NCBI GenBank assembly: GCA_013204555.1
Contig: JABMNO010000034.1
Span: 29,228-93,227 of the forward strand
Length of the DNA stretch: 64,000 nucleotides
Reading direction: 5' to 3'
From: Chloroflexota bacterium
GTDB lineage: Bacteria; Chloroflexota; Dehalococcoidia; Lucifugimonadales; Lucifugimonadaceae
The translations under genes were made by a program, and so were the position numbers. Position 1 is the first letter of the stretch; each line of letters begins with the position of its first letter. The notes under the pieces were generated by a model. It was not told the DNA's origin. It did not search any database and saw only the letters and a program-made list of their open reading frames with translations. Below are positions 7,356 through 40,270 of the stretch, piece after piece.

Positions 7356-8111
7356 TTATTTCGCGCGATCCAACGCTGCTGCGAATCTGTCAGCGCTCTG
7401 GGTCAGCCAATCTGACAGGTTTGTGTAGAAGAAGCGGACGCCCATATCCACGTATTTGCCAGCTGACTCAGCGCTCACATTAGTGCCAGCCACACGTCCC
7501 GATGCCACGATTCGAGTAATAGCTTCGTCAATTGCCGCCACGGCATCCGGGTGTCCGGGATTGCCGATGTGGCCCATCGACTGTGAGAAGTCGGACTGCG
7601 CTACGAGAAGCACGTCAATTTGATCGACTTCCAGGATGCTGTCCAACTCTTGCAACGCGTCGTAGTCCTCTATCAGAACCACGATCATCGTCTCGTCATT
7701 GGCTTTCTCAAGGTAGTCGTCCACCCCGTAGCCCTGCCTGCTGAACCACATCCCGCGCCGCCCAATGGGAGCGAATTTGGCGGCAGCCACAACTTCGTCC
7801 GCGATAGCTCTCGTCTTCATGTGCGGCACGACGATTGATTGCGCTCCGCGATCCAACGTCCTGTAAATAATGTTTTCTTCGTTCCAGCCGACACGGACGA
7901 TAGAGGTCTTGCCCCAGAGGTCGCACGCCCGTGAAAGATCGCCGATGTGCGAGTAGTCGACCGGTCCGTGCTCAGCTTCAAACCAGAACGCGTCGACTGG
8001 AGACGGACCCAGCAGGTCAACAATCTCTGGAGAGTCTGCGCCACCCAGCGCGATCACCGTTCCGCCGTTCTTGAGCTTCTTCTTTGCGTTGTTCGTCCTG
8101 ATCTCTGCCAT
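7356..8111 (-). CDS. HpcH/HpaI-family aldolase (2-keto-3-deoxy-acid type)
   Basis: About 251 residues match class II HpcH/HpaI aldolases: WFEAEHGPVDYSHI (the W-x-E-x-EH active-site segment), a conserved arginine in SIVRVGW, GAQSIVVPHMKT and RRGMWFSRQGYG. VLIEDYDAL supplies the metal-ligand glutamate and LLVAQSDFSQSMG lies in place of the usual GxxDLSxSLG. Family members cleave 2-keto-3-deoxy sugar acids or 4-hydroxy-2-ketoacids, using a divalent metal, to pyruvate and an aldehyde. A longer frame from a TTG at 8123 exists. I prefer the ATG at 8111 because an AGGGTGA ribosome-binding sequence sits just far enough upstream of it and too close to the TTG. It lies between two catabolic amidohydrolases in the same orientation. 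Confidence 0.85.
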   Translation of the reverse strand: MAEIRTNNAKKKLKNGGTVIALGGADSPEIVDLLGPSPVDAFWFEAEHGPVDYSHIGDLSRACDLWGKTSIVRVGWNEENIIYRTLDRGAQSIVVPHMKTRAIADEVVAAAKFAPIGRRGMWFSRQGYGVDDYLEKANDETMIVVLIEDYDALQELDSILEVDQIDVLLVAQSDFSQSMGHIGNPGHPDAVAAIDEAITRIVASGRVAGTNVSAESAGKYVDMGVRFFYTNLSDWLTQSADRFAAALDRAK

Positions 8112-8173
8112 ATGAAGAAACAATCACCCTGCCACTGGTTATATCTTTTTACGTCTCCGCCAACCGAAAGATT

Positions 8174-9613
8174 CTAACCGGGAACGGAATCCCGCGAATA
8201 CATCAATCCTTTTGACGGCTCGATGATTTCGTATGAGACGCCAGCGGTGGTGGCTGCGGATTGGCCTCGATCGGTTATTAAGACGGTGCCGCCAGAGCCA
8301 ACTATCTTGCCGGCGCGGAGGACTGGTTTGCCCCCGACGACGGTGTCGGTTGCGACGCCGGTTTGCGGGTCGATGACAGTGATATCAGCATCGGCGCCGG
8401 GCTCAAGTCGGCCTTTGTTCTCAAGGCCAAACATACGGGCCGGGTTATAGCTGAGCTTTTCGACGGCCTCAAGCGGTTCCAGTGCGCCGAATCTAACCAT
8501 CGCAATGGTCTGCTCGATATTGACGTTGCGGGGGAGGATTCCGCCATCTGAGGCGACTGCGTCGACGATGAACTTGCCGTTGGCATCTTTCGCTGAAGTG
8601 AGAGCGAATGCGGTTGATGGCAGGTTTACCGGGAAGCTCATGGGGACGTTGGAGTCGCCGCGTTCAAATTCTGCAAGGCCCGCCTTGCCCGATACGAGTT
8701 CAAGATGATCGCCTGCGGCCACAACCACCGATCCGTATCCGTCGCTGATCGCTGACCGCATTCCGTCGATATTGGGCGCGTAGTCGCGCAAGCGAAGGCA
8801 GTTGCGTGGGACGTCGTTGAGAACTTCACCGTCCGGGCCGCAATCTCCACGAGTGAAGTTTGGCACGGCCATATGGACTTCGGATACGACGCGTGTCCCC
8901 AGGGACTCGATGATCTGCAACGCTTCCGCAACCTCTTCGTTGGGCTTCAAAATTGAGCCGCGGCAATAGGCGTTGACGTGGGCGATGTGGAGCCTGCCAT
9001 TTGAGCCCAGGATTTCTGGAATCTCACGCAAGCCATCAAGCCGACTACCAGACTCGGTTGTGCCAACATGAAACGCTACGTGTGCTCCCATCCGGTTGCA
9101 TGATTCAATGACTCGCGCTGTGCCTTCGGGCGTCAGAGGGTAGTAACCGCCCCACATTTTGGCGCCAATTGAGCCGGTGGAAAGTCCCTCAGCGATAACG
9201 CTGTCAACTTCGGTCCGCGCTGGCTCAGTGGAACTGATCGAATGGCCGGGTGCGACTCGGATCAATGACGCGACGTTGATACCTGTACCGCCTCGAATTA
9301 TCGACTCGTAGAGAACTTCCATCGAACCGCCAAGATCGATTGCCGTGGTTACACCGGCAAGGGCAAGTTGGTTTAGGCCGATTACGGAGTCAAAACCGAA
9401 ATCCGGTGGACCTGCGAAGTGGGCATGGGCGTCGATGTGGCCAGGGATGACCCATTTACCGGTGACATCAATGACATCGTCGCCCGCGCCTGGCTCGTAC
9501 TCATGAACGATGTCCTGCACAACTCCGTCCGAAACGACAAGGTCTGCCACGGCATCGAAGCGCGTCTTCGTGTCGATGATTCGGCCACCTCGAAGAATTA
9601 TGCGATTTGCCAT
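8174..9613 (-). CDS. Amidohydrolase, cyclic-amidohydrolase/D-aminoacylase-like (copy 2)
   Basis: This is a paralogue of the enzyme at 3794-5221 with the same order of motifs: GHIDAHAH (HxH, about residues 59-65), GAKMWGGYYPLTPE with the candidate bridging lysine, FHVGTTESGS, HIAHVNAYCRG, PRNCLRLRDYAP, DAVASDGG and PGADADITVIDP. The proteins are alike over their full length. The start is the ATG at 9613, which has GGAGG 9 nt upstream; the frame is open 11 codons further but without a better signal. The reaction is probably hydrolysis of an amide or cyclic amide. The start lies only about 37 nt from the divergent gene at 9650, so the two promoters must overlap. Confidence 0.86.
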   Translation of the reverse strand: MANRIILRGGRIIDTKTRFDAVADLVVSDGVVQDIVHEYEPGAGDDVIDVTGKWVIPGHIDAHAHFAGPPDFGFDSVIGLNQLALAGVTTAIDLGGSMEVLYESIIRGGTGINVASLIRVAPGHSISSTEPARTEVDSVIAEGLSTGSIGAKMWGGYYPLTPEGTARVIESCNRMGAHVAFHVGTTESGSRLDGLREIPEILGSNGRLHIAHVNAYCRGSILKPNEEVAEALQIIESLGTRVVSEVHMAVPNFTRGDCGPDGEVLNDVPRNCLRLRDYAPNIDGMRSAISDGYGSVVVAAGDHLELVSGKAGLAEFERGDSNVPMSFPVNLPSTAFALTSAKDANGKFIVDAVASDGGILPRNVNIEQTIAMVRFGALEPLEAVEKLSYNPARMFGLENKGRLEPGADADITVIDPQTGVATDTVVGGKPVLRAGKIVGSGGTVLITDRGQSAATTAGVSYEIIEPSKGLMYSRDSVPG

Positions 9614-31263: not shown

Positions 31264-31661
31264 GAAACGCCTTCCAGCTGGTCGGCGCACTCTTTGTGGG
31301 AGCGCGCGAAATTGATGGACAGAAAATATGGGTCAGTGGGTGTAGCGGGAGTTATGCCGCTAATCGACCGAGGTCGGTCGGATATAAGGTGAGGCTTTAG
31401 ACCTACCAAGCGCCTTTTCTATGACCGCCCGTCAACGCGCTCCAATTTCGATTCTGTGAAGTGCGGTTGAAGGACATCTTGAGGTACACCCAACCCAGCG
31501 ATTCTATGAACGGCCTCACTGCCTGTCAATTGAGTCTCTGCGGATAGTTTCGAATTGTGCAACGATCATGAAATCGAGTACGACCTACCCATCGGTCGAC
31601 TTCGTTCACGGACACGAAGTTAAACTATTTGAGGCGTTGAACACCTGTGGGAGGCTGTGGG
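31264..31661. other. Divergent intergenic stretch between pyrG and a PEBP lipoprotein gene
   Basis: No supported gene lies in these 398 nt. An inverted repeat around CGACCGAGGTCGGTCG (about 31366-31381) could be an operator. Promoters for both flanking genes should be here, but I cannot place them firmly. Confidence 0.4.
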
Positions 31662-32225
31662 TTGAGATATCTGATACCGATTCTTGTTTTGATTTCGCTG
31701 GCAGTTGCCTGCGGAGGTGGCGATTCCCGAGCAGTTGTTGCTATCGGTGACGTTGGAGGCTTGGGAGAATTCGAGGTATCGAGCCTCGCGTTCCAGGGCG
31801 GGGGAAGGATTCCGCCGCGGTATACCTGCGATGGGGAAGACCGATCGTTCCCTCTGGAGTGGTCCGGTGCGCCTGAGGAAACTCAATCCTACGCAATTGT
31901 GCTGGACGATCCTGATGCTCCGGGCGGCACATTCAAACATTGGATGATTTTTGACATCCCCAGGTCAGACACTGGATTGCGTGAATCAGTGGACAAGACC
32001 GAGGTAATTGTTGGTGGAGCCGTCCAACTTCGAAATGATTTTGGCCGCACCGGCTACAGCGGGCCATGTCCGCCAGAGGGCGAGGCACACCGATACCAGG
32101 TTTTTGTATTCGCACTGAGCGAACCCGTGGCCCTTGGCTCATCTGCCTCGCAGACGGAAGTCCTGGACGCTATTGCGGCGGTCGCCCTGGCCCGGGCCTC
32201 CCTTGAGGGGGTCTACGGCCGTTAG
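31662..32225 (+). CDS. YbhB/YbcL-family (PEBP) lipoprotein
   Basis: The N-terminus is a lipoprotein signal ending in LAVAC, followed by GGGD. The rest is the phosphatidylethanolamine-binding-protein fold as in bacterial YbhB/YbcL: GRIPPRYTCDGEDRSFPLEWSG, then SYAIVLDDPDAPGGTFKHW, GYSGPCPPEGEAHRYQVFVFAL and a C-terminal helix. Here D-x-D-A-P and the GPCPP loop are the ligand-site motifs. The biochemical role of bacterial PEBPs is unclear; ligand binding or protease inhibition is suspected. I use the TTG at 31662, which has GGGAGG 7 nt upstream; a GTG at 31647 is an alternative. The last 56 nt overlap the convergent zinc-ribbon gene. Confidence 0.88.
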   Translation: MRYLIPILVLISLAVACGGGDSRAVVAIGDVGGLGEFEVSSLAFQGGGRIPPRYTCDGEDRSFPLEWSGAPEETQSYAIVLDDPDAPGGTFKHWMIFDIPRSDTGLRESVDKTEVIVGGAVQLRNDFGRTGYSGPCPPEGEAHRYQVFVFALSEPVALGSSASQTEVLDAIAAVALARASLEGVYGR

Positions 32226-32997
32226 GTGGCGGTGGTCCACCCGGATGGCCGCCGGGCGGAGGAGATGGCCGGCGCTGGCCACCGGGAGGAGGTGGCCGTC
32301 GCTCGCCGCCTGGTGGCGGTGGACGTCGCTCGCCGCCTGATGGCGGTGGCCGTCGCTGCCCACCGGCCTGTGGTGGACGGGCGCCACGCTCTGGATACCA
32401 ACCTACCGTGCTTTCGTTCTGACAGTTCGTGCATTTAACCGTGTTACCAACGTGGTGTTCATCACCGCAATTTGAGCATTTGAACGTCTTTTTGAGTCCG
32501 TAGCCTGGAGTCGCCTGAAGATTTTCCATGATGCTCTTCATCTGACGCATCACGCCGCCTTGCAGTTGCTGGACGTCAAGTCTGGAAGCGAACTCCCCAC
32601 TGCCAAGCTGGTTGGTAAGCGCTGCGATAGAGGCCTCAAGAGTGACCATACGTTGCACAGCGGCTTCGATCGTGGCAATGCGCTGTTCAAGAACTGCGAT
32701 GGTGGCGGGATCCACCCCGCCCCCTAGCGTTCCGGGATCGGGCTGAATCCACGGTCTGGCTTCCTGCATTGCCGGAGCTACCGCGGCTATGGGAGCAAGA
32801 GGCGGTGGGGCGGGCGCCACTGGAGCGGCTGCAATGGGTGGCGCTATGTTGACCTCTGGCATATCACCCACGGTTGAAGCGCGGGTTATCCCATCCGCGC
32901 TCGTACCCGGATCCAGTACAACGTCGCCTGATGGGACCTCCCCAAATAGCGCGTCAATCGCTTCTTGCGTCAGTACGCCTGTAGCTTCCTCAGCCAT
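32170..32997 (-). CDS. Zinc-ribbon protein with FliM-like N-terminal CheY-binding peptide and Pro/Gly-rich tail
   Basis: This 275-residue protein fits no family I know. Residues 9-18 read LTQEAIDALF, close to the FliM/FliY N-terminal peptide LSQxEIDALL that binds phosphorylated CheY. A Pro/Ala-rich linker (about 22-90) and a predicted coiled coil (about 96-160, VLEQRIATIEAAVQRMVTLE onward) follow. Then comes a zinc ribbon with Cys174, Cys177, Cys189 and Cys192 (CSNCGDEHH...CTNC). The tail from about 205 has repeated GGxRRPPPPGG units. The ATG overlaps the stop of the upstream HD-GYP-like gene (ATGA), making it the coupled last gene of the chemosensory operon. I infer an output or scaffold protein recruited by CheY-P. 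No membrane segment or enzyme motif is seen. Confidence 0.8.
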   Translation of the reverse strand: MAEEATGVLTQEAIDALFGEVPSGDVVLDPGTSADGITRASTVGDMPEVNIAPPIAAAPVAPAPPPLAPIAAVAPAMQEARPWIQPDPGTLGGGVDPATIAVLEQRIATIEAAVQRMVTLEASIAALTNQLGSGEFASRLDVQQLQGGVMRQMKSIMENLQATPGYGLKKTFKCSNCGDEHHVGNTVKCTNCQNESTVGWYPERGARPPQAGGQRRPPPSGGERRPPPPGGERRPPPPGGQRRPSPPPGGHPGGPPPPNGRRPPQGRPGPGRPPQ

Positions 32998-34076
32998 CAG
33001 TAATCCAACACTTCAGTGATCATTTCGCGTTGCTGATCGGGGGAGCTCAAGTCAAGCTCGTAAGGATCTTTTAGATCTTCACCATGCCGGTCTTTGAATA
33101 CTCTGACTATTGGTCTCCCAACAAACCCTGGGTTTGGGTCAGCAACTACGCCCACTTCATTTGTGTCCAGTCGAACGCTGACTCCCGTGGCATACAAGGG
33201 GACTTTTCGCACGAAGATATCTACAAGTTTGGGATCAAATAGTTCCATGGAGTAAGCCATGATGAATTCCATCGCCTCGTGCGGCATCATGGCCAGCCTG
33301 TGCGGCCGGACGGATGCGAGTCCGTAAAAAGTGTCAACGATGCCCAGAATACGAGCCGACTGAGAAATCTCTTCACCTTTTGCGCCATTTGGATATCCAG
33401 TGCCGTCAAATCTCTCGTGAGATTGAGCCACGATGGAAGAAACGGATGCGTCTAATTGACCACAAGCGTCGATCAAACGTTTGCCGTTGGCGGGGTGTTG
33501 AATAATCTCATACCAGGCTGCCGCTGTGAGTTGGTGAGGAGTCAGCAACAGGCCTTCTGTAATCCCGAAGTAGCCCACGTTCATGAGTGCAGCGGCCGTC
33601 GCTAGATTCGCTTGTTGGGCTATGTCCAGACCTGCTGCACCGCCAATGGCGATGCAGAGACCGGAAACCTGAGCTGGATGAACATAGTCATACACCAGCG
33701 GATTAGAACAACCAACAATTGCAGGCTCCCCAAGAATGCTTTCGCTCATCTTGGTGGCAACCGCAAATAGGCGCTGGTGCATCTTGTCCACGAGCGCGGG
33801 TTCCAATGATCCAGATGCCTGCAATTCAACTACGAGTTGGCGTATGGACTGAACAAGCATTGCTTCCTCTGCTGGAGGAACAAGCGGTTCAACTGGGATG
33901 TCGCTGGTTTTCTGATCCTCAATGATCAGTTCAGCAATCCCGTAATTTTGCAGCTGCTGGATTCCATCCACGGAAAGCTGATCACCAGCCCCAATAAACG
34001 AGTGACCTTGTGTGTCGTACGCGGGCCATCCAAGGGTCATCCCCTCTTTTGCGTAATTTGTTCCTATTCTTCGCAC
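32997..34076 (-). CDS. HD-GYP-like protein with degenerate metal site
   Basis: The C-terminal two thirds align by eye with HD-GYP domains, which hydrolyse cyclic di-GMP: H133 in YDYVHPAQVSG, QHP at 193-195, SHERFDGTGYPNG at 219-231, RILGIVDTFYGLASVRPHR at 242-260 and a GVVADPNP C-terminal lobe. The central HD pair, expected in AALLHDIGK, is replaced by Met165-Asn166 in AALMNVGYF, the following GK lysine is Tyr, and the first His of the usual HHE is Ser219. The GYP motif itself is kept. Hydrolysis is therefore doubtful, and ligand sensing is possible. An N-terminal region of about 110 residues (IGTNYAKEGMTLGWPAYDTQG) resembles the DUF3391-like start of such proteins. It sits 37 nt after cheR and is coupled to the zinc-ribbon gene. 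Confidence 0.8.
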   Translation of the reverse strand: MRRIGTNYAKEGMTLGWPAYDTQGHSFIGAGDQLSVDGIQQLQNYGIAELIIEDQKTSDIPVEPLVPPAEEAMLVQSIRQLVVELQASGSLEPALVDKMHQRLFAVATKMSESILGEPAIVGCSNPLVYDYVHPAQVSGLCIAIGGAAGLDIAQQANLATAAALMNVGYFGITEGLLLTPHQLTAAAWYEIIQHPANGKRLIDACGQLDASVSSIVAQSHERFDGTGYPNGAKGEEISQSARILGIVDTFYGLASVRPHRLAMMPHEAMEFIMAYSMELFDPKLVDIFVRKVPLYATGVSVRLDTNEVGVVADPNPGFVGRPIVRVFKDRHGEDLKDPYELDLSSPDQQREMITEVLDY

Positions 34077-34113: not shown

Positions 34114-34923
34114 TTACGCTGCACGTTCAAGACGTGCAGATGCTGCCGTTTTTCTGTAAAGAGATGACTCGACGCGCTCGAATCCCAATTCGTCTGCCTT
34201 GTGAAGCGTCTCCGTGCCTCCAATGAACAGCCATCCACCAGGCTTCAGCGCCTTGTGAAATGCTTTGTTCAAAATGTCCTTCGCATCATCGGAAAAGTAG
34301 ATAACCACGTTGCGGCACAAGATCAGATCAAGATCTGAAGGGAACATTCCCTTCAGAAGGTTCTGCTCCTTGAAACGAACGCCGCGCTTGATTTCGTCCG
34401 ACACGTAATACGAGTCATCAACGGCTTTGAAATGCTTCTTTAGAAGCGGCGCTGGCACTGCCCGGACATCCGCGGCGCTATAAGGTCCGCCATCAGCGGC
34501 ACGTTTGAGAATCGTTTTGTCGAGATCTGAACCCAGAATGTCATGTGGTTTCCCACGGGTCATCTCAGAAAGCATGATTGCCAGGGTGTACGCCTCGCCA
34601 CCATGTGACGCCCCGGCGCTCCAAACCTTGAGCCTGCTCCTCTGCGAGAGTAGCTCCGGCAGAGCCTTCTTCTGAAGCAGCTCAAATTGATGCTTATCGC
34701 GGAAGAACTCAGACACGTTGATGGTCATGAAGTCGCGTAGTTGGAGCGCTTCACCCTTGTCTGTGCCAATGAGCTTGCCAAGATCTGCAAGGCTCATACC
34801 TTTTCTCTTGGTATATCCATCAAGCCGCCGGATCATCTGCTGAGGCTTGTATGAGTTGAGATCGATTCCCAAGTTTGTGGCAACACTTGGAACGAATTTT
34901 GAATACTCGGCTTCGGAAATCAC
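34114..34923 (-). CDS. cheR: Chemotaxis protein methyltransferase
   Basis: CheR methylates glutamates on chemoreceptors using S-adenosylmethionine. The N-terminal helical domain (about residues 1-75) contains YKPQQMIRRLDGYTKRKG and FMTINVSEFFRDKHQF. The methyltransferase domain has VWSAGASHGGEAYTLAIML (motif I), ILGSDLDKTILKRAADG, and DLILCRNVVIYFSDD followed by LKPGGWLFIGGTETL. I place the start at the GTG at 34923 (VISEAEY), two nt past the cheB stop; the longer frame to 34956 lies inside cheB. It implies that adaptable receptors exist elsewhere in the genome. Confidence 0.95.
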   Translation of the reverse strand: MISEAEYSKFVPSVATNLGIDLNSYKPQQMIRRLDGYTKRKGMSLADLGKLIGTDKGEALQLRDFMTINVSEFFRDKHQFELLQKKALPELLSQRSRLKVWSAGASHGGEAYTLAIMLSEMTRGKPHDILGSDLDKTILKRAADGGPYSAADVRAVPAPLLKKHFKAVDDSYYVSDEIKRGVRFKEQNLLKGMFPSDLDLILCRNVVIYFSDDAKDILNKAFHKALKPGGWLFIGGTETLHKADELGFERVESSLYRKTAASARLERAA

Positions 34924-34925
34924 AG

Positions 34926-35996
34926 TTAGACAGCAACCTTTTGGACTGATGCACACATTTCGACAATGTGGTTGGCGATTCTTCTTAGCGGGGCGACCCG
35001 GTCAGTCAGACCGGCTTCAGCAACGCTCTTTGGCATTCCGTAAACAGCACAGGTAGATTCATGTTCGGCTAGCACCAGACCACCTGCGGCCTTGATAGCG
35101 CGAGAGCCTTCAGTACCATCAGACCCCATTCCAGTAAGGATGACAGAGCGCATCTTGGTCCCAAATACCCTGGCAGCGTGGCGCGCCGTGACATCTATAG
35201 CTGGTCTCACTCCACACTCAGTCGGTCCTTCGCCCAGTTGAATCTGGTTCCGGTTACCAATCTCCATGTGAAACCCACCCGGCGCGAGTAACGCGGTACC
35301 CGCGGTAATCACGTCTCCCGCTTTTGCCTCTCTCACCTCAATCTCTGAAGCCTTGTTGAGGCGATCTGCCAGCGATGCGGTAAATCCAACCGGCATGTGC
35401 TGGACGATCAGGTACGCCGCATTCAGATCTGCTGGCAGGTGTGGAACTACTTCCGCTAGCGCCTTAGGACCACCTGTACTGGAGCCAATAAGGACAACGT
35501 AATCCATTCGCGGCGCGATTCTGCGCCGGTTTTCAACTGCCTTTGGCTTGTCAGGTTGTAGGGTCGTCCGGGAAAGCGTTCGTGACACCTTGGCGTTGGC
35601 GGCGTTTCTTACAACGGATGCCAGGTTGCCCTGACCCGTATCATCGCCTTCACCTGATGCCAACCGCGACTTCAGGAAGAAGTCCACAGCACCCAGTTCC
35701 AGTGCCGCTATGGTCGCGTCTGTCTGCGGCCCAGCTAACGTGCTCAACATGACAACCGGCGTTGGCCGCAACCTCATGATCTGCCGGAGTGCCGTTATGC
35801 CATCCATGACGGGCATTTCAACGTCAAGCGTGATCACGTTGGGTCTCAGCTCACGGACTAACTCAAGCGCCTCTTTCCCGTTAGAGGCCTGCCCTACTAC
35901 CGTCATCCTGGGATCAGCGTCCAGTTGGCGCACAATCCGGCTACGGGCAAACTTAGAGTCGTCTACAACTAGTACTTTTATCTTTTGCAAGGTCAC
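34926..35996 (-). CDS. cheB: Chemotaxis methylesterase/deamidase response regulator
   Basis: CheB removes methyl groups from receptors when phosphorylated by CheA. The receiver domain (residues 1-125) has the acidic pair VVDDSKFARS, phospho-acceptor Asp58 in ITLDVEMPVMDG and a Lys in FFLKSR. After a linker the catalytic domain shows VLIGSSTGGPKAL (nucleophile Ser), YLIVQHMPVGFTASLADRL (His) and ILTGMGSDGTEGSRAIK (Asp). Length and order are normal. It lies between cheY and cheR; cheR starts 2 nt after its stop. Confidence 0.97.
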   Translation of the reverse strand: MTLQKIKVLVVDDSKFARSRIVRQLDADPRMTVVGQASNGKEALELVRELRPNVITLDVEMPVMDGITALRQIMRLRPTPVVMLSTLAGPQTDATIAALELGAVDFFLKSRLASGEGDDTGQGNLASVVRNAANAKVSRTLSRTTLQPDKPKAVENRRRIAPRMDYVVLIGSSTGGPKALAEVVPHLPADLNAAYLIVQHMPVGFTASLADRLNKASEIEVREAKAGDVITAGTALLAPGGFHMEIGNRNQIQLGEGPTECGVRPAIDVTARHAARVFGTKMRSVILTGMGSDGTEGSRAIKAAGGLVLAEHESTCAVYGMPKSVAEAGLTDRVAPLRRIANHIVEMCASVQKVAV

Positions 35997-36042: not shown

Positions 36043-36399
36043 CTAACCGATCATCTTCTGGACGGCACCGACCACCCGTTCAGCAGTGAAAGGCTTGACC
36101 ACAAAGTCCATTGCGCCCGCTTTCAAGGCTTCCATCACGATCGATTGTTGCCCCATGGCCGTCACCATTGCGATCCTGGCATTTGGATCATGCTCACGGA
36201 TGTGTTTGAGAGCCGTAAGTCCATCCATGTCCGGCATCGTGATGTCCAACAGCACGCAGTCCGGACTGACCGATTTGTACGCCTCAACCGCTTCCGCGCC
36301 TGTTGCTGCTTCCGTGACGACGTAGCCGACTTCGCTTAGCATCTTGGTCGCTTTCATCCGCATAAATGCGGCGTCATCAACCACCATTACACTTGGCAT
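36043..36399 (-). CDS. cheY: Single-domain response regulator CheY
   Basis: The 118-residue receiver has VMVVDDAAFMR with the metal-binding aspartates, phospho-acceptor Asp52 in LLDITMPDMDG, Thr in AMVTAMG and Lys in VVKPF. All five conserved positions are present. Nothing else is fused to it. It starts at the ATG at 36399 with a GAGGAGGG ribosome-binding site that overlaps the end of cheD. In flagellated bacteria CheY-P binds FliM; here the only FliM-like peptide in view is on the zinc-ribbon protein at 32170-32997. Confidence 0.95.
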   Translation of the reverse strand: MPSVMVVDDAAFMRMKATKMLSEVGYVVTEAATGAEAVEAYKSVSPDCVLLDITMPDMDGLTALKHIREHDPNARIAMVTAMGQQSIVMEALKAGAMDFVVKPFTAERVVGAVQKMIG

Positions 36400-36410: not shown

Positions 36411-36917
36411 TCAAAGTTCTTCAGGCGTGGCGCCTGCTTCTGAAACGAAGACTCTTCCTGAGCCTGTCTCAAGCCGTAGTGTTCTGCCCCGGGATCCGCC
36501 CAGCTCTTTCGAGACAATGCGAATCCCCGCAGCTTTGGCCGCCTCCGTGACGGCCTCAATGTTTCTCTCCCCGATTTTGAATACCGGGTTCGTCGCGTTC
36601 GAAAGAGCCATCTGCGCCCCTCCTGCGATCTTGAATCGAATGCGAGATTTGATGGCGCCGTTGGCGACCATCTCTTCGATCAACCGTGGCACTCCCGTAT
36701 CCGCGTACTTGGCCTTGCTCTCGGTCGATCGCCCTCCCGAGTTTGGCAACACGATGTGAGCCATCCCGTAAACGCTGGCTTGTTGGTCTGACGCTGCGAT
36801 CCCCACACATGAACCAAGCCCGAGACAGGCCAGAGTAGTTTCTGAATCCGTTACAACCGACATATCGCCAAGTCCAACTGCGATACGGTTTTCCGCTCTA
36901 ATTGCTGTTTGAGTCAT
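36411..36917 (-). CDS. cheD: Chemoreceptor glutamine deamidase CheD
   Basis: CheD deamidates receptor glutamines and partners with CheC. The protein has CLGLGSCVGIAA (catalytic Cys37), YGMAHIVLPNSGG (His54), KYADTGVPRLIEEM, KIAGGAQM and FKIGERNIEAV, all standard CheD motifs, in about 168 residues. The ATG at 36917 overlaps the cheC stop as TAATG; a GTG at 36929 lies inside cheC. The tight overlap with cheC agrees with the known CheC-CheD complex. Confidence 0.96.
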   Translation of the reverse strand: MTQTAIRAENRIAVGLGDMSVVTDSETTLACLGLGSCVGIAASDQQASVYGMAHIVLPNSGGRSTESKAKYADTGVPRLIEEMVANGAIKSRIRFKIAGGAQMALSNATNPVFKIGERNIEAVTEAAKAAGIRIVSKELGGSRGRTLRLETGSGRVFVSEAGATPEEL

Positions 36918-37540
36918 TAGTCCTGCCACTTATCCAGCAAAACTGCCTTTAACTCTGGGTTAGGCAGCACGAGGAATACTCCGCGTATTTGCTGGTCCGT
37001 GGTACCGAACCTGGTGTCGACCACCAGAACGTCATCGGCATACATCATGAGGTCGGCTACTGCTGCGTCAATTACAGCGGCGGCCATATCCATCATCACT
37101 GTGGGCGGCGTTGGCCTCAGTTCCACATTTGTGACGTCGCCCAGAGCCGAGAGAAAATAGGCACCCATAATGTTGCCCATCTCGCCCATGGCTGAGACTT
37201 CCAACTCACTGAATCCTTCTTCAAGGCTCGGTTTCTCGCCCAGCAGGAGACCAAGGAGGTCTACGGCTGTCTGAGGCTGAAACGCGACCATGATGTGGCC
37301 TGATGCTTCACCCTCTACTCCTAAATGTATGGCCACCATCTGATCTTCGGGATCACCAACAAGCGTGCTCACCGCGGCGGCGGGCAACGTTCTTGGCGCC
37401 AGAAACGTGGTGCGCACAGGCTGACCCACCATCTCTGAAAGTCCTGAAATAGCGTGCGTTATGCCGCCAGCTACAAGACCTGTCCAAACCTGATCTTCAA
37501 GCAGTGCCTGATCCTTATCCTGGACACTGGTCATCTCCAT
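36917..37540 (-). CDS. cheC: CheC-like CheY-P phosphatase
   Basis: CheC-type phosphatases dephosphorylate CheY-P and are stimulated by CheD. The second half has SAMGEMGNIMGAYFLSAL, which fits the [DS]-x3-E-x2-N signature, with a proline 22 residues after the Asn (LRPTPP). The equivalent N-terminal motif reads HAISGLSEMVGQPV and lacks the Asn, so one active site is expected instead of two. There is no FliM-like N-terminal peptide and no FliN domain, which separates it from FliY. It is 207 residues, typical of CheC, and overlaps cheD. Confidence 0.93.
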   Translation of the reverse strand: MEMTSVQDKDQALLEDQVWTGLVAGGITHAISGLSEMVGQPVRTTFLAPRTLPAAAVSTLVGDPEDQMVAIHLGVEGEASGHIMVAFQPQTAVDLLGLLLGEKPSLEEGFSELEVSAMGEMGNIMGAYFLSALGDVTNVELRPTPPTVMMDMAAAVIDAAVADLMMYADDVLVVDTRFGTTDQQIRGVFLVLPNPELKAVLLDKWQD

Positions 37541-37550
37541 AATTCCACCC

Positions 37551-39665
37551 TCAAGCGGCTAGTTGTGATTCTGAAATCTGCAACTCGGCGTGTTGCTCGT
37601 CTTGAGACGCTCTGTTCGCTGCGTTCGCTGCGATAAATGCACCCTGCTGTCGGGCGGCGCTGATCATTGATGCAACATCCAGAATGAGGCAGACTCGTCC
37701 ATCTCCCATGATGCTGGCACCGGTTATTCCCTTGACATCCCCTATGTAAGAGCCAAGAGGCTTTACGACGATCTCCTGTGGTTCGATTACGGCATCGACC
37801 ACGAGCCCTATTCGCGTTTCTCCCGTCTGCAACACCACGGCATAGTCCGATGAGTCAGAATCGGACGCGTCATGCTTTTGTGGCGATCTTCCCAGCGCGC
37901 TGCGCAGCCTTAGTAGCGGCAACACCTGCCCACGGAGATTGAACACTTCGTGATGGTTGATGAGATGAATCTCTTTAGATGGGATCCGGCGTGTCTCAAG
38001 CACATAGATCAGTGGAACGGCGAGCACGTCACCATCACTTGAAACCAACAGTGACTGAACTGTGGCAAGCGTCAGCGGTAAGCGGAGTTTGATTGTGGTG
38101 CCAACGCCTACCTGGCTTTCAATGTTGACGATGCCGCCAATCGCTTCGATGTTGGAACGGACGATGTCCATGCCTACTCCGCGCCCGGAGACATCTGTTG
38201 TCTTCTCAGCGGTGGAGTTGCCTGCGACGAAAATAAGCTCGCGCGCTTCGTCATCGCTCATGGCTGCCGCGGACTCTTTCGTGATCAAGCCTTTCTCCAC
38301 CGCAGATGCTCGCAGTGCTTCCGGGTTGATTCCACGGCCATCGTCCTGTACAGCGACGACAATGTGTCCCTGCTCCTGGTAAGCCGACAGACTCAGCGAA
38401 CCGGTCTCCGATTTGCCAGCCGCAATCCGCTCAGCAGGTTTCTCCAATCCGTGGTCAAGGGAATTCCTGAGAAGGTGGGTTATTGGGTCCCTGACACGCT
38501 CGATAACTGTCTTATCGATCTCCGTGTCCTGGCCATCGACAATGAAATCGACTTTCTTCTCAAGGCCATGTGCCAGGTCCCTTAGCATCCTTGGGAAGCC
38601 TCCGAATACGGTGCCAATTGGCAGCATTCGGACCTGCATTACCCGATCTTGAAGTTCAGTAACTACTTTGACTATGTGGGCTGTGGTTTTGGCCAGATCC
38701 TGGATAAGCGGCTCATCTTTGTAGTTGGCCTCCAACTCTCGGCCTATTTGAGAAAGTTGGCCGCGATCTATGACCATCTCTCCAATGACATTCATCAGGG
38801 TGTCAAGGCGTTCAACGTCCACTCTGATTGTCGGGGTCCGCTCACCTTGCTTTGAGCGAGCCACCTGCCTTCCGGAGACGGCCTCAACCGGTTCCGATGC
38901 GCTGTCAGATACTTCCGCAACGTCAAAGGAGGTGACGTCGCACGTCAATACATCTTCAACCGCAGTCATTAGCGACTCGATTGATCCGTCATCTGAGGTT
39001 GATCCGAAGACCGCTTCCAGGTTGTGCCCCGCTGTGCCTTCTTCTATCGCGCTGGCAGATGGAGCCGTACCAAATACCTGGCCAACAGTCTCAAGGGAAG
39101 AAATCGCCTGAAACCAACGGACAGAGGCCCACGTGCACTGCTCATTCAGGGTCGCACTGATTCTTACAGCGCGGCGGTCGTCACTCTCGGCCAGAAAGTC
39201 ACGCAGAGCACTTGTTGCTGAATCGTCCAGATCTAAAGTCTCTGGCTGTGAAACGGAAACGGCATCAGCCGAATCTTCACCTGCGCTGTTGAGTGCAGCG
39301 ACAACTTCTGTGACGTCGATTGGCTCGTCTGGCTCGTTGACCAGGGCGTCTTTCAACTCTCGTAACAGATCAAGGCTCGCGAGCAGAGCATCCACCACAA
39401 CGGTAGTGGGCGCCAACGTGCCCTTCCGCACCTTGTCCAGAAGGGTCTCCATTGCATGACCAAGGTCGGTCATTTCCTGGTACCCCAGCATTGCTGAGGA
39501 TCCCTTCAATGTGTGTGCGGCCCGAAAGATTTCCTGAATCCCTTCGGAAGAATTTTCCTGCCCTTCAATTGCAACGATATTCTCGTCCAAGAGTTGGAGC
39601 TGTTCATCCGCTTCGTCAAGAAAGACCTGTAGGTCTTCTCGGGTTATGTCAGGATCCAGATTCAT
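37551..39665 (-). CDS. cheA: Chemotaxis histidine kinase CheA
   Basis: This 704-residue class II sensor kinase has the full domain order. P1 (Hpt) contains His51 in RAAHTLKGSSAML. A CheY/CheB-binding P2-like domain lies at about 165-265. The P3 dimerisation helices start IRVDVERLDTLMNVIGEMVI. The P4 ATPase has HLLRNSLDHGLEKP (N box), VQDDGRGINPEAL (G1) and SGRGVGMDIVRSNIEAIGG (G2). P5 is a CheW-like domain at about 540-680. The start is the ATG at 39665 with AAGGGG 8 nt upstream. It autophosphorylates in response to receptors and passes phosphate to CheY and CheB. A hairpin lies in the 125-nt gap to cheW. Confidence 0.97.
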   Translation of the reverse strand: MNLDPDITREDLQVFLDEADEQLQLLDENIVAIEGQENSSEGIQEIFRAAHTLKGSSAMLGYQEMTDLGHAMETLLDKVRKGTLAPTTVVVDALLASLDLLRELKDALVNEPDEPIDVTEVVAALNSAGEDSADAVSVSQPETLDLDDSATSALRDFLAESDDRRAVRISATLNEQCTWASVRWFQAISSLETVGQVFGTAPSASAIEEGTAGHNLEAVFGSTSDDGSIESLMTAVEDVLTCDVTSFDVAEVSDSASEPVEAVSGRQVARSKQGERTPTIRVDVERLDTLMNVIGEMVIDRGQLSQIGRELEANYKDEPLIQDLAKTTAHIVKVVTELQDRVMQVRMLPIGTVFGGFPRMLRDLAHGLEKKVDFIVDGQDTEIDKTVIERVRDPITHLLRNSLDHGLEKPAERIAAGKSETGSLSLSAYQEQGHIVVAVQDDGRGINPEALRASAVEKGLITKESAAAMSDDEARELIFVAGNSTAEKTTDVSGRGVGMDIVRSNIEAIGGIVNIESQVGVGTTIKLRLPLTLATVQSLLVSSDGDVLAVPLIYVLETRRIPSKEIHLINHHEVFNLRGQVLPLLRLRSALGRSPQKHDASDSDSSDYAVVLQTGETRIGLVVDAVIEPQEIVVKPLGSYIGDVKGITGASIMGDGRVCLILDVASMISAARQQGAFIAANAANRASQDEQHAELQISESQLAA

Positions 39666-39790: not shown

Positions 39791-40270
39791 TTAAGCGGCG
39801 AGGGCTACCTCGCCAATTTCGGCCTGCTCGTCTGTGCTCAAGACCTGTTCAAGGTCAAGGAGAATGATCAAGCGATTATCGAGCTTTGCGATTCCTCGCA
39901 GGTAACCCGAATCAGCGGTCGTAATGACGTTTGATGGCGGCTCAACGGATCCGCTGGAAATCCTGAGGACTTCCGTGACGGCGTCAACAACCATTCCGAT
40001 TTCGTGACCACCGATGTCAACGTTGACGATGCGATTATCCGAGTCCCGGTCCCGTTCCTGAAGCCCAAATCGTTTGCGGAGATCCACAACCGGGATTACC
40101 TTGCCTCGCAGGTTGATCACGCCTTCTACGAACTCAGGAGTCCGCGGAACCTGTGTGATTTCCTGGAGTCGAATGATCTCTCGTACTGACTCAATAGAGA
40201 TTCCGTACGCTTCTCCGCTTAGGTCAAACACGACCAGCTGCTGCTCTGCCGTACCTGCTTCATTTGACAT
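39791..40270 (-). CDS. cheW: Chemotaxis coupling protein CheW
   Basis: The 159-residue protein is a single CheW SH3-like domain: LVVFDLSGEAYGISIESVREII, ITQVPRTPEFVEGVINLRGKVIPVVDLRKRFG (around 40080-40170) and GMVVDAVTEVLRI, ending GIAKLDNRLIILLDLEQVL. It links receptors to CheA in membrane arrays. It is the first gene of the leftward operon, with GAGGG 10 nt before its ATG and a 9-bp direct repeat just upstream. The alternating order cheW, cheA, cheC, cheD, cheY, cheB, cheR is complete for a core pathway; only receptors are missing from view. Confidence 0.97.
   Translation of the reverse strand: MSNEAGTAEQQLVVFDLSGEAYGISIESVREIIRLQEITQVPRTPEFVEGVINLRGKVIPVVDLRKRFGLQERDRDSDNRIVNVDIGGHEIGMVVDAVTEVLRISSGSVEPPSNVITTADSGYLRGIAKLDNRLIILLDLEQVLSTDEQAEIGEVALAA

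Follow-up and report, generated by a model that had tools for sequence, protein, structure and literature searches.

What receives the signal of a chemosensory operon in a bacterium whose genome encodes archaellum genes and in which no FliM, FliN or CheF domain was found? The question is raised by the window (the whole stretch of Chloroflexota DNA that was analysed, 64,000 nucleotides), where a che operon closes with a gene for a protein of FliM-like N-terminus. In 2025 Chloroflexota were reported to possess a functional archaellum; the available portion of that paper (PMC12488501) states that CheF is absent from the phylum, allows that another component might have evolved, and leaves open how chemotaxis reaches the motor without CheF. 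According to an excerpt of another report (PMC10444878), isolates of cultured relatives have archaellum genes but no visible archaella. No adaptor of the kind described below was named in titles and abstract openings on the archaellum and chemotaxis of Chloroflexota, SAR202 or Litorilinea (preprints and most subscription papers lay outside this scope), and the terms CheY, CheF and chemotaxis were not found in the main text of PMC13319060.

Results

The last gene of the operon and its peptide

The operon in the window reads CheW-CheA-CheX/C-CheD-CheY-CheB-CheR-HD, with the candidate adaptor gene last (Table 1). The initial annotation had described a full cheWACDYBR operon with this gene as its coupled final member. 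The che genes are indeed present and the coupling is real, in that the ATG of the adaptor gene overlaps the TGA of the gene upstream (TGATG), but the HD_5 gene had been overlooked, and the supposed CheC fits the CheX and CheC models alike. Among PDB entries, CheY chains match the operon's CheY best, with 6er7, 1tmy and 4iga at the top; we take 1tmy and 4iga to be Thermotoga maritima CheY, the latter presumably including a FliM peptide. From the other side, a gene of the phosphatidylethanolamine-binding-protein family (31647-32225, plus strand) converges on the adaptor gene, and the 3' ends of the two overlap by 56 bases.

Table 1. Positions in the window of the candidate adaptor gene, its parts and the operon that precedes it.
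Feature	Position	Strand	Basis
Candidate archaellum CheY-P adaptor, 275 aa	32170..32997	-	ORF, translation, profile alignment
LTQEAIDALF, predicted FliM-type CheY-binding peptide, residues 9-18	32944..32973	-	Motif, matrix, conservation
Pro/Ala-rich linker of variable length, residues 19-95	32713..32943	-	Alignment, model
Predicted coiled-coil helix, residues 97-132	32602..32709	-	Model; long helix also in compact homologue
Zinc ribbon, residues 164-203; C174, C177, C189 and C192 invariant	32389..32508	-	Alignment
Pro/Gly/Arg tail, residues 204-275, unconserved	32173..32388	-	Sequence, alignment
HD_5 protein; HD-pair position reads MN	32997..34076	-	Pfam, alignment
cheR	34114..34956	-	Pfam
cheB	34926..35996	-	Pfam
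cheY (Response_reg; top PDB matches are CheY chains)	36043..36399	-	Pfam, PDB matches
cheD	36411..36929	-	Pfam
cheX/cheC-type phosphatase; matches both CheX and CheC models	36917..37540	-	Pfam
cheA (Hpt, P2, dimerisation, ATPase and CheW domains)	37551..39665	-	Pfam
cheW	39791..40270	-	Pfam

The likeness of the decapeptide to the FliM/FliY peptide, from which the annotation had started, was scored with a matrix of ten-residue FliM peptides from flagellated Chloroflexota. Twenty-four FliM loci were read, five of which lacked a pattern match and two of which were repeats, leaving 17 peptides whose selection by pattern biases the matrix toward the motif. Among the 178 window ORFs of at least 80 aa, the adaptor candidate ranks first with 22.1 bits, the runner-up reaching 7.7, so that the match is not one of chance. 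The FliM peptides score 23.8-33.8 bits in their own matrix, and other members of the family 11.9-27.6, the best unrelated ORF of 2793 reaching 11.6. Since the peptide at the lower end of the family range (LSQNQIDAMF, genome G180) does no better at 11.9 bits than that unrelated ORF, its assignment rests on ribbon and operon.

Downstream of the peptide, the initial annotation had proposed a coiled coil, a four-cysteine zinc ribbon and a PPGG-repeat tail. The coiled coil is predicted and the cysteines, which form two CxxC pairs (174/177 and 189/192), bear the ribbon out; the tail is rich in Pro, Gly and Arg in this protein, but it is unconserved, and 12 of the 21 aligned members stop 12-15 residues past the last cysteine. 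AlphaFold2 models the window protein poorly (mean pLDDT 52.6), with a helix predicted at low confidence over residues 11-17, in the peptide. A compact homologue of 159 aa (L048) models better (mean pLDDT 74.3; 56 of its 159 residues, within the long helix, at 90 or above). Here a short helix spans the peptide, a helix of 66 residues lies mostly above 90, and the ribbon contributes two short strands; Foldseek found no significant match to this model in the PDB. The only Pfam match of the window protein is a Pro-rich model below cut-off, and NCBIfam yielded no named family. Weak Pfam matches of the homologues were rejected as family identity, since they resemble coiled-coil and ribbon noise, and the Pfam and NCBIfam scans of the window protein and its homologues matched no known DNA-binding domain.

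The peptide and the ribbon define a family

A single-sequence database search, in which the best 7992 candidates by shared words were scored, returned at least three further proteins, and a search of relatives added more distant members from other genera whose genomes are archaellated. The single-sequence search found nothing in one archaellin-bearing genome (G001, 79% complete) of the same genus as the window's. A family profile (A2) run over 197 genomes of the order, with the best 9 or 12 candidates per genome scored, matched in 18, and reading of the loci found the N-terminal peptide in 16 of these, in forms such as VLSQDAIDALL, VLSQEEIDAML, VLSQAEIDSLV and VMSQADIDALI. The two genomes dropped from the count are G153, where a lipoprotein-like ORF had produced a false match, and G151, where a zinc-ribbon end occurs without peptide. 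G151 has no archaellin match, and its locus (L054) shows the ribbon end with no peptide found upstream; two other sampled members of its genus that bear the protein carry archaellins.

Fifteen of the 16 peptide-bearing genomes have the four-cysteine ribbon, the exception being G036, whose protein has the peptide without it. Across 21 aligned members, the window's included, Q11, D15, the four cysteines, G199 and the start methionine are invariant (the last by construction, as the starts of several members were chosen by hand) and I14 is kept in 20, while linker, helices and tail diverge. The peptide and the zinc ribbon are thus the parts under constraint. A profile of the 21 members retrieved 50 database homologues, with the peptide in 42 and the ribbon in 48; of the eight without the peptide pattern, seven appear truncated at their N-terminal end and the eighth reads LPQDAIDALF. 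In genome G014, two adaptor-like genes lie in tandem (L035:7251-7598 and 7868-8731), the first encoding the peptide and a coiled-coil-like part without ribbon. Because the G036 protein and the extra copy in G014 do without it, the ribbon may be dispensable in some members.

Occurrence with archaellins and CheA

Within the order sample of 197 genomes, archaellins occur in 55, a strong CheA match in 14 (four weak CheA-domain matches of 21-25 bits being left out) and the peptide-bearing protein in 16. All 16 of the latter have archaellins (Fisher p 2e-10, relatedness ignored), and every one of the 13 genomes that combine CheA with archaellins has the protein, compared with 3 of the remaining 184 (Fisher p 8e-18, again ignoring relatedness). 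As the genomes are related, these values overstate independence; the members span seven families of the order. The sole CheA genome of the order without the protein, G188, has no archaellin match, and its CheA gene is cut at the end of an 8-kb contig, which hides what follows in that operon. The protein was found without a CheA match in G157, G160 and G194, assemblies of 180-400 contigs each. Forty-two of the 55 archaellin-bearing genomes of the order lack a strong CheA match, and most archaella in this sample may work without chemotaxis, gaps in the genomes aside.

The wider sample of 301 genomes of the phylum gave archaellin matches in nine, one of them below cut-off. Three of the nine (G000, G274 and G290, of which G274 and G290 represent two further families of the class) carry both the protein and CheA. 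The remaining six have no CheA match; two of these, G057 and G390, give weak profile matches that lack the peptide. The family profile matched 26 of the 301 genomes, again with the best 9 or 12 candidates per genome scored. These comprise the three full members, three genomes in which the N-terminus of FliM itself was matched (G281, G273 and G432), and others, all weak (E 5e-6 to 1e-3), that lack the peptide pattern and were left out of the count. The distribution of the gene follows the joint presence of CheA and archaellins.

Motor genes in the genome and its close relatives

The genome from which the window comes is 93% complete and was scanned as part of a sample of 60. FliMN_C (PF01052) was found in none of the 60, this one included, nor was CheF-arch (PF04283), and the FliM middle domain (PF02154) was not found in this genome; a flagellar FliM/FliN elsewhere in the genome as the target of CheY, and CheF as the adaptor, were both rejected on these grounds. 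The initial annotation had asked for a check of fliM and fliN, and had named, as the finding that would count against its proposal, a FliM/FliN set served by this CheY combined with an unconserved motif. We find no FliM/FliN domain, and related Chloroflexota conserve the motif, the peptide occurring in all 21 members; the HD-adaptor order occurs in 15 of 20 loci. The annotation's suggestion of a CheY-P output other than the flagellar switch is therefore supported.

Archaellin (PF01917), on the other hand, is matched at 13 places in the same genome and is present in 17 of the 60. Contig 33 encodes ArlI (613.6 bits against an NCBIfam cut-off of 550), ArlH (261.7 against 194 by one model, 209.6 against 215 by another), ArlJ (317 bits, under the cut-off of 570, with part of the gene scanned), three archaellin-like ArlF/G proteins and one ArlCDE-like protein. 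The ArlF/G and ArlCDE names rest on position and on sequence shared with other arl clusters, the ArlCDE models giving no match. The outputs that had been proposed (a scaffold, or an envelope, pilus or cyclic-nucleotide function) therefore miss the likeliest, in that archaellum genes are present and the protein tracks archaellins and CheA.

Two further sets of small proteins were observed. In two genera, arlJ is followed by genes for small acidic proteins whose C-terminal halves resemble each other (L032:19266-19586, which has no Pfam match, and L040:13219-13626). Short proteins that combine a coiled coil with a zinc ribbon but lack the peptide are encoded at L028:5207-5629 (contig C67 of the window's own genome), L030:5755-6192 (G024) and near 2319-2705 of L031 (G015), and could possibly represent the parent scaffold of the adaptor.

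Gene neighbourhoods

The adaptor locus was read in 20 genomes, all of which have archaellins. It directly follows an HD gene in 15 (G000, G002, G003, G014, G031, G094, G117, G119, G140, G148, G180, G203, G205, G274 and G290). In G036 it comes after cheR, with no HD gene found, and in G157, G160, G166 and G194 no che gene lies beside it within the stretch read. HD-GYP enzymes carry a catalytic HD pair where the HD_5 protein of the window and four orthologues read MN, MN, MN, MD and MN in alignment. Because MN or MD replaces the pair, the HD_5 protein upstream of the adaptor, which differs from HD-GYP phosphodiesterases in this respect, is probably not an active phosphodiesterase; this neighbour of the adaptor is possibly a scaffold and not an enzyme.

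In several genomes the operon is physically linked to the archaellum genes. One strand in G290 carries CheD, two long unnamed ORFs, CheY, CheB, CheR, two HD genes, the adaptor and a receiver-bearing ORF, and then two regulator ORFs, ArlB, ArlCDE-like, ArlF/G, ArlH, ArlI and ArlJ; CheA lies on this strand of the contig as well. G274 has its che-HD-adaptor operon tail to tail with an ArlB-to-ArlJ cluster, the adaptor ending at 9098 and the last arl-side ORF at 8945; this arl cluster holds two tandem ArlI-like ATPase genes (L132:3075-6566). The che operon of G166 ends in HD, and 1.5 kb beyond it, on the same strand, come archaellins and the first part of an ArlCDE-like gene. The operon of G119 contains an ArlH/FlaH-like KaiC gene beside cheR, HD and adaptor (L068:11317-12093, G119:C336), at 153.9 bits against a cut-off of 194. 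Flagellated members of the class (G432 and G353) share the CheW-A-X-D-Y-B-R order; fliM adjoins cheW in G432, and a FliM domain lies less than 2 kb from the CheA dimerisation domain in G353.

Discussion

Because the peptide and ribbon are conserved, the gene closes a che operon, the genome has arl genes, and the family both co-occurs with and is linked to the archaellum, this protein is a candidate for the chemotactic role that no CheF fills. We consider it probable that gene 32170-32997 encodes the CheY-P adaptor of the bacterial archaellum. We infer CheY-P binding, oligomeric state, dock and switching as follows. The N-terminal helix, which matches the FliM peptide, would catch CheY-P, the peptide presumably entering the alpha4/alpha5 groove of the operon's phosphorylated CheY, as described for FliM (PMC9126983). 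A flexible linker would let the peptide reach out for CheY-P, the protein would dimerise or form higher oligomers through the coiled coil, and coiled coil and C-terminal zinc ribbon together would anchor it to the motor of the archaellum, the ribbon docking onto a cytoplasmic part, be it the ArlCDE-like protein, ArlH or ArlI. Loading with CheY-P might then alter the sense of rotation, which is the job of CheF in archaea. Presence and absence do not single out the ArlCDE-like gene as the dock, because archaellated genomes that have no CheA match were found to carry it too.

A different possibility is that the protein binds CheY-P at the chemoreceptor array or the cell pole, as a sink, a phosphatase dock or a polar scaffold, and that some other protein signals to the archaellum. 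A CheX/CheC-type phosphatase is a partner in the operon, a coiled coil with a zinc ribbon would suit a scaffold, and the fold match that ranks best, though insignificant, is to the zinc finger of ZitP. Against this, the protein follows archaellins. FliM occurs in 35 of the 301 phylum genomes and 23 of those have a CheA-domain match, yet the profile search, with the best 9 or 12 candidates per genome scored, so that a member may have been missed, found the protein in none of the 35. We regard an array or polar function as unlikely.

Four-cysteine ribbons are common among nucleic-acid proteins, and the homologues do give weak, below-cut-off matches to Pfam ribbons of nucleic-acid type. Thus the protein might be a regulator gated by CheY-P, whose ribbon touches DNA or RNA polymerase and adjusts expression of the archaellins, of which there are many copies to control. 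That no known DNA-binding domain was matched, that FliM-type peptides are motor parts, and that the short life of CheY-P would make it a poor transcription signal all speak against a regulator, which seems to us quite improbable.

Archaella and pili have common machinery, and the association with archaellins might be a by-product of genomes carrying both. An output to a type IV or Tad pilus, for which one could cite the type IVa and Tad pili reported in many Chloroflexota in the accessible part of PMC12488501, is the least probable reading, given the physical links to arlB-CDE-F/G-H-I-J in G290 and G274 and to archaellins in G166.

An archaellum adaptor with a defined predicted peptide makes testable the question of how chemotaxis bypasses CheF. 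If the proposal is true, the interface by which CheY reaches a rotary motor can be carried over from one motor to another, a single ten-residue catch serving two that are unrelated. The gene would also mark those archaellated bacteria that are chemotactic, just 13 of the 55 archaellin-bearing genomes of the order having a strong CheA match.

Comparison with known systems

The closest likeness is to FliM and FliY, which have V-L-(S/T)-Q-x-x-I-D-(A/S)-L-(L/F) at the extreme N-terminus, as does the window family. The window protein has an N-terminal peptide of the FliM type (L/M)SQxxIDxL and would, on this likeness, share its partner. FliM peptides of Chloroflexota include MSQEAIDRLL and LTQEAIDQLL, the second of which differs from the window's peptide at two of ten positions, and a portion of PMC9126983 describes EIDALL as the site, conserved in FliM and FliY, at which CheY-P binds. 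The likeness ends there: the FliM middle domain and FliMN_C are absent from the window protein, whose peptide, unlike that of FliM, leads into linker, coiled coil and zinc ribbon, in genomes without a detected FliM/FliN domain. For the ribbon-bearing part, the zinc finger of ZitP (2nb9, presumably from Caulobacter) is the top Foldseek match of the L048 model, which at E 1.2 and a query TM of 0.09 is insignificant and serves as a lead only. The motor genes are the same as those of the Chloroflexota archaellum of PMC12488501, in the available portion of which no CheY adaptor is named.

CheF would have the same job, linking CheY-P to the archaellum, and its occurrence with archaellum and chemosensory genes also holds for the window family. 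The CheF-arch domain, however, is absent from the window protein in the Pfam scan. CheF, as described in part of PMC9126983, has two PH-like domains and uses its C-terminal tail to bind CheY close to where the latter is phosphorylated, whereas the predicted CheY peptide of the window family is N-terminal and FliM-type, and no PH-like part is seen. We are inclined, with some reserve, to see in this family the receiver of CheY-P that bacterial archaella have so far been missing: a protein unrelated to CheF, in which a coiled-coil zinc-ribbon anchor bears the FliM catch peptide. Chemotaxis of the flagellar type would here have been rewired to an archaeal motor gained by gene transfer, with a bacterial CheY steering an archaeal rotor.
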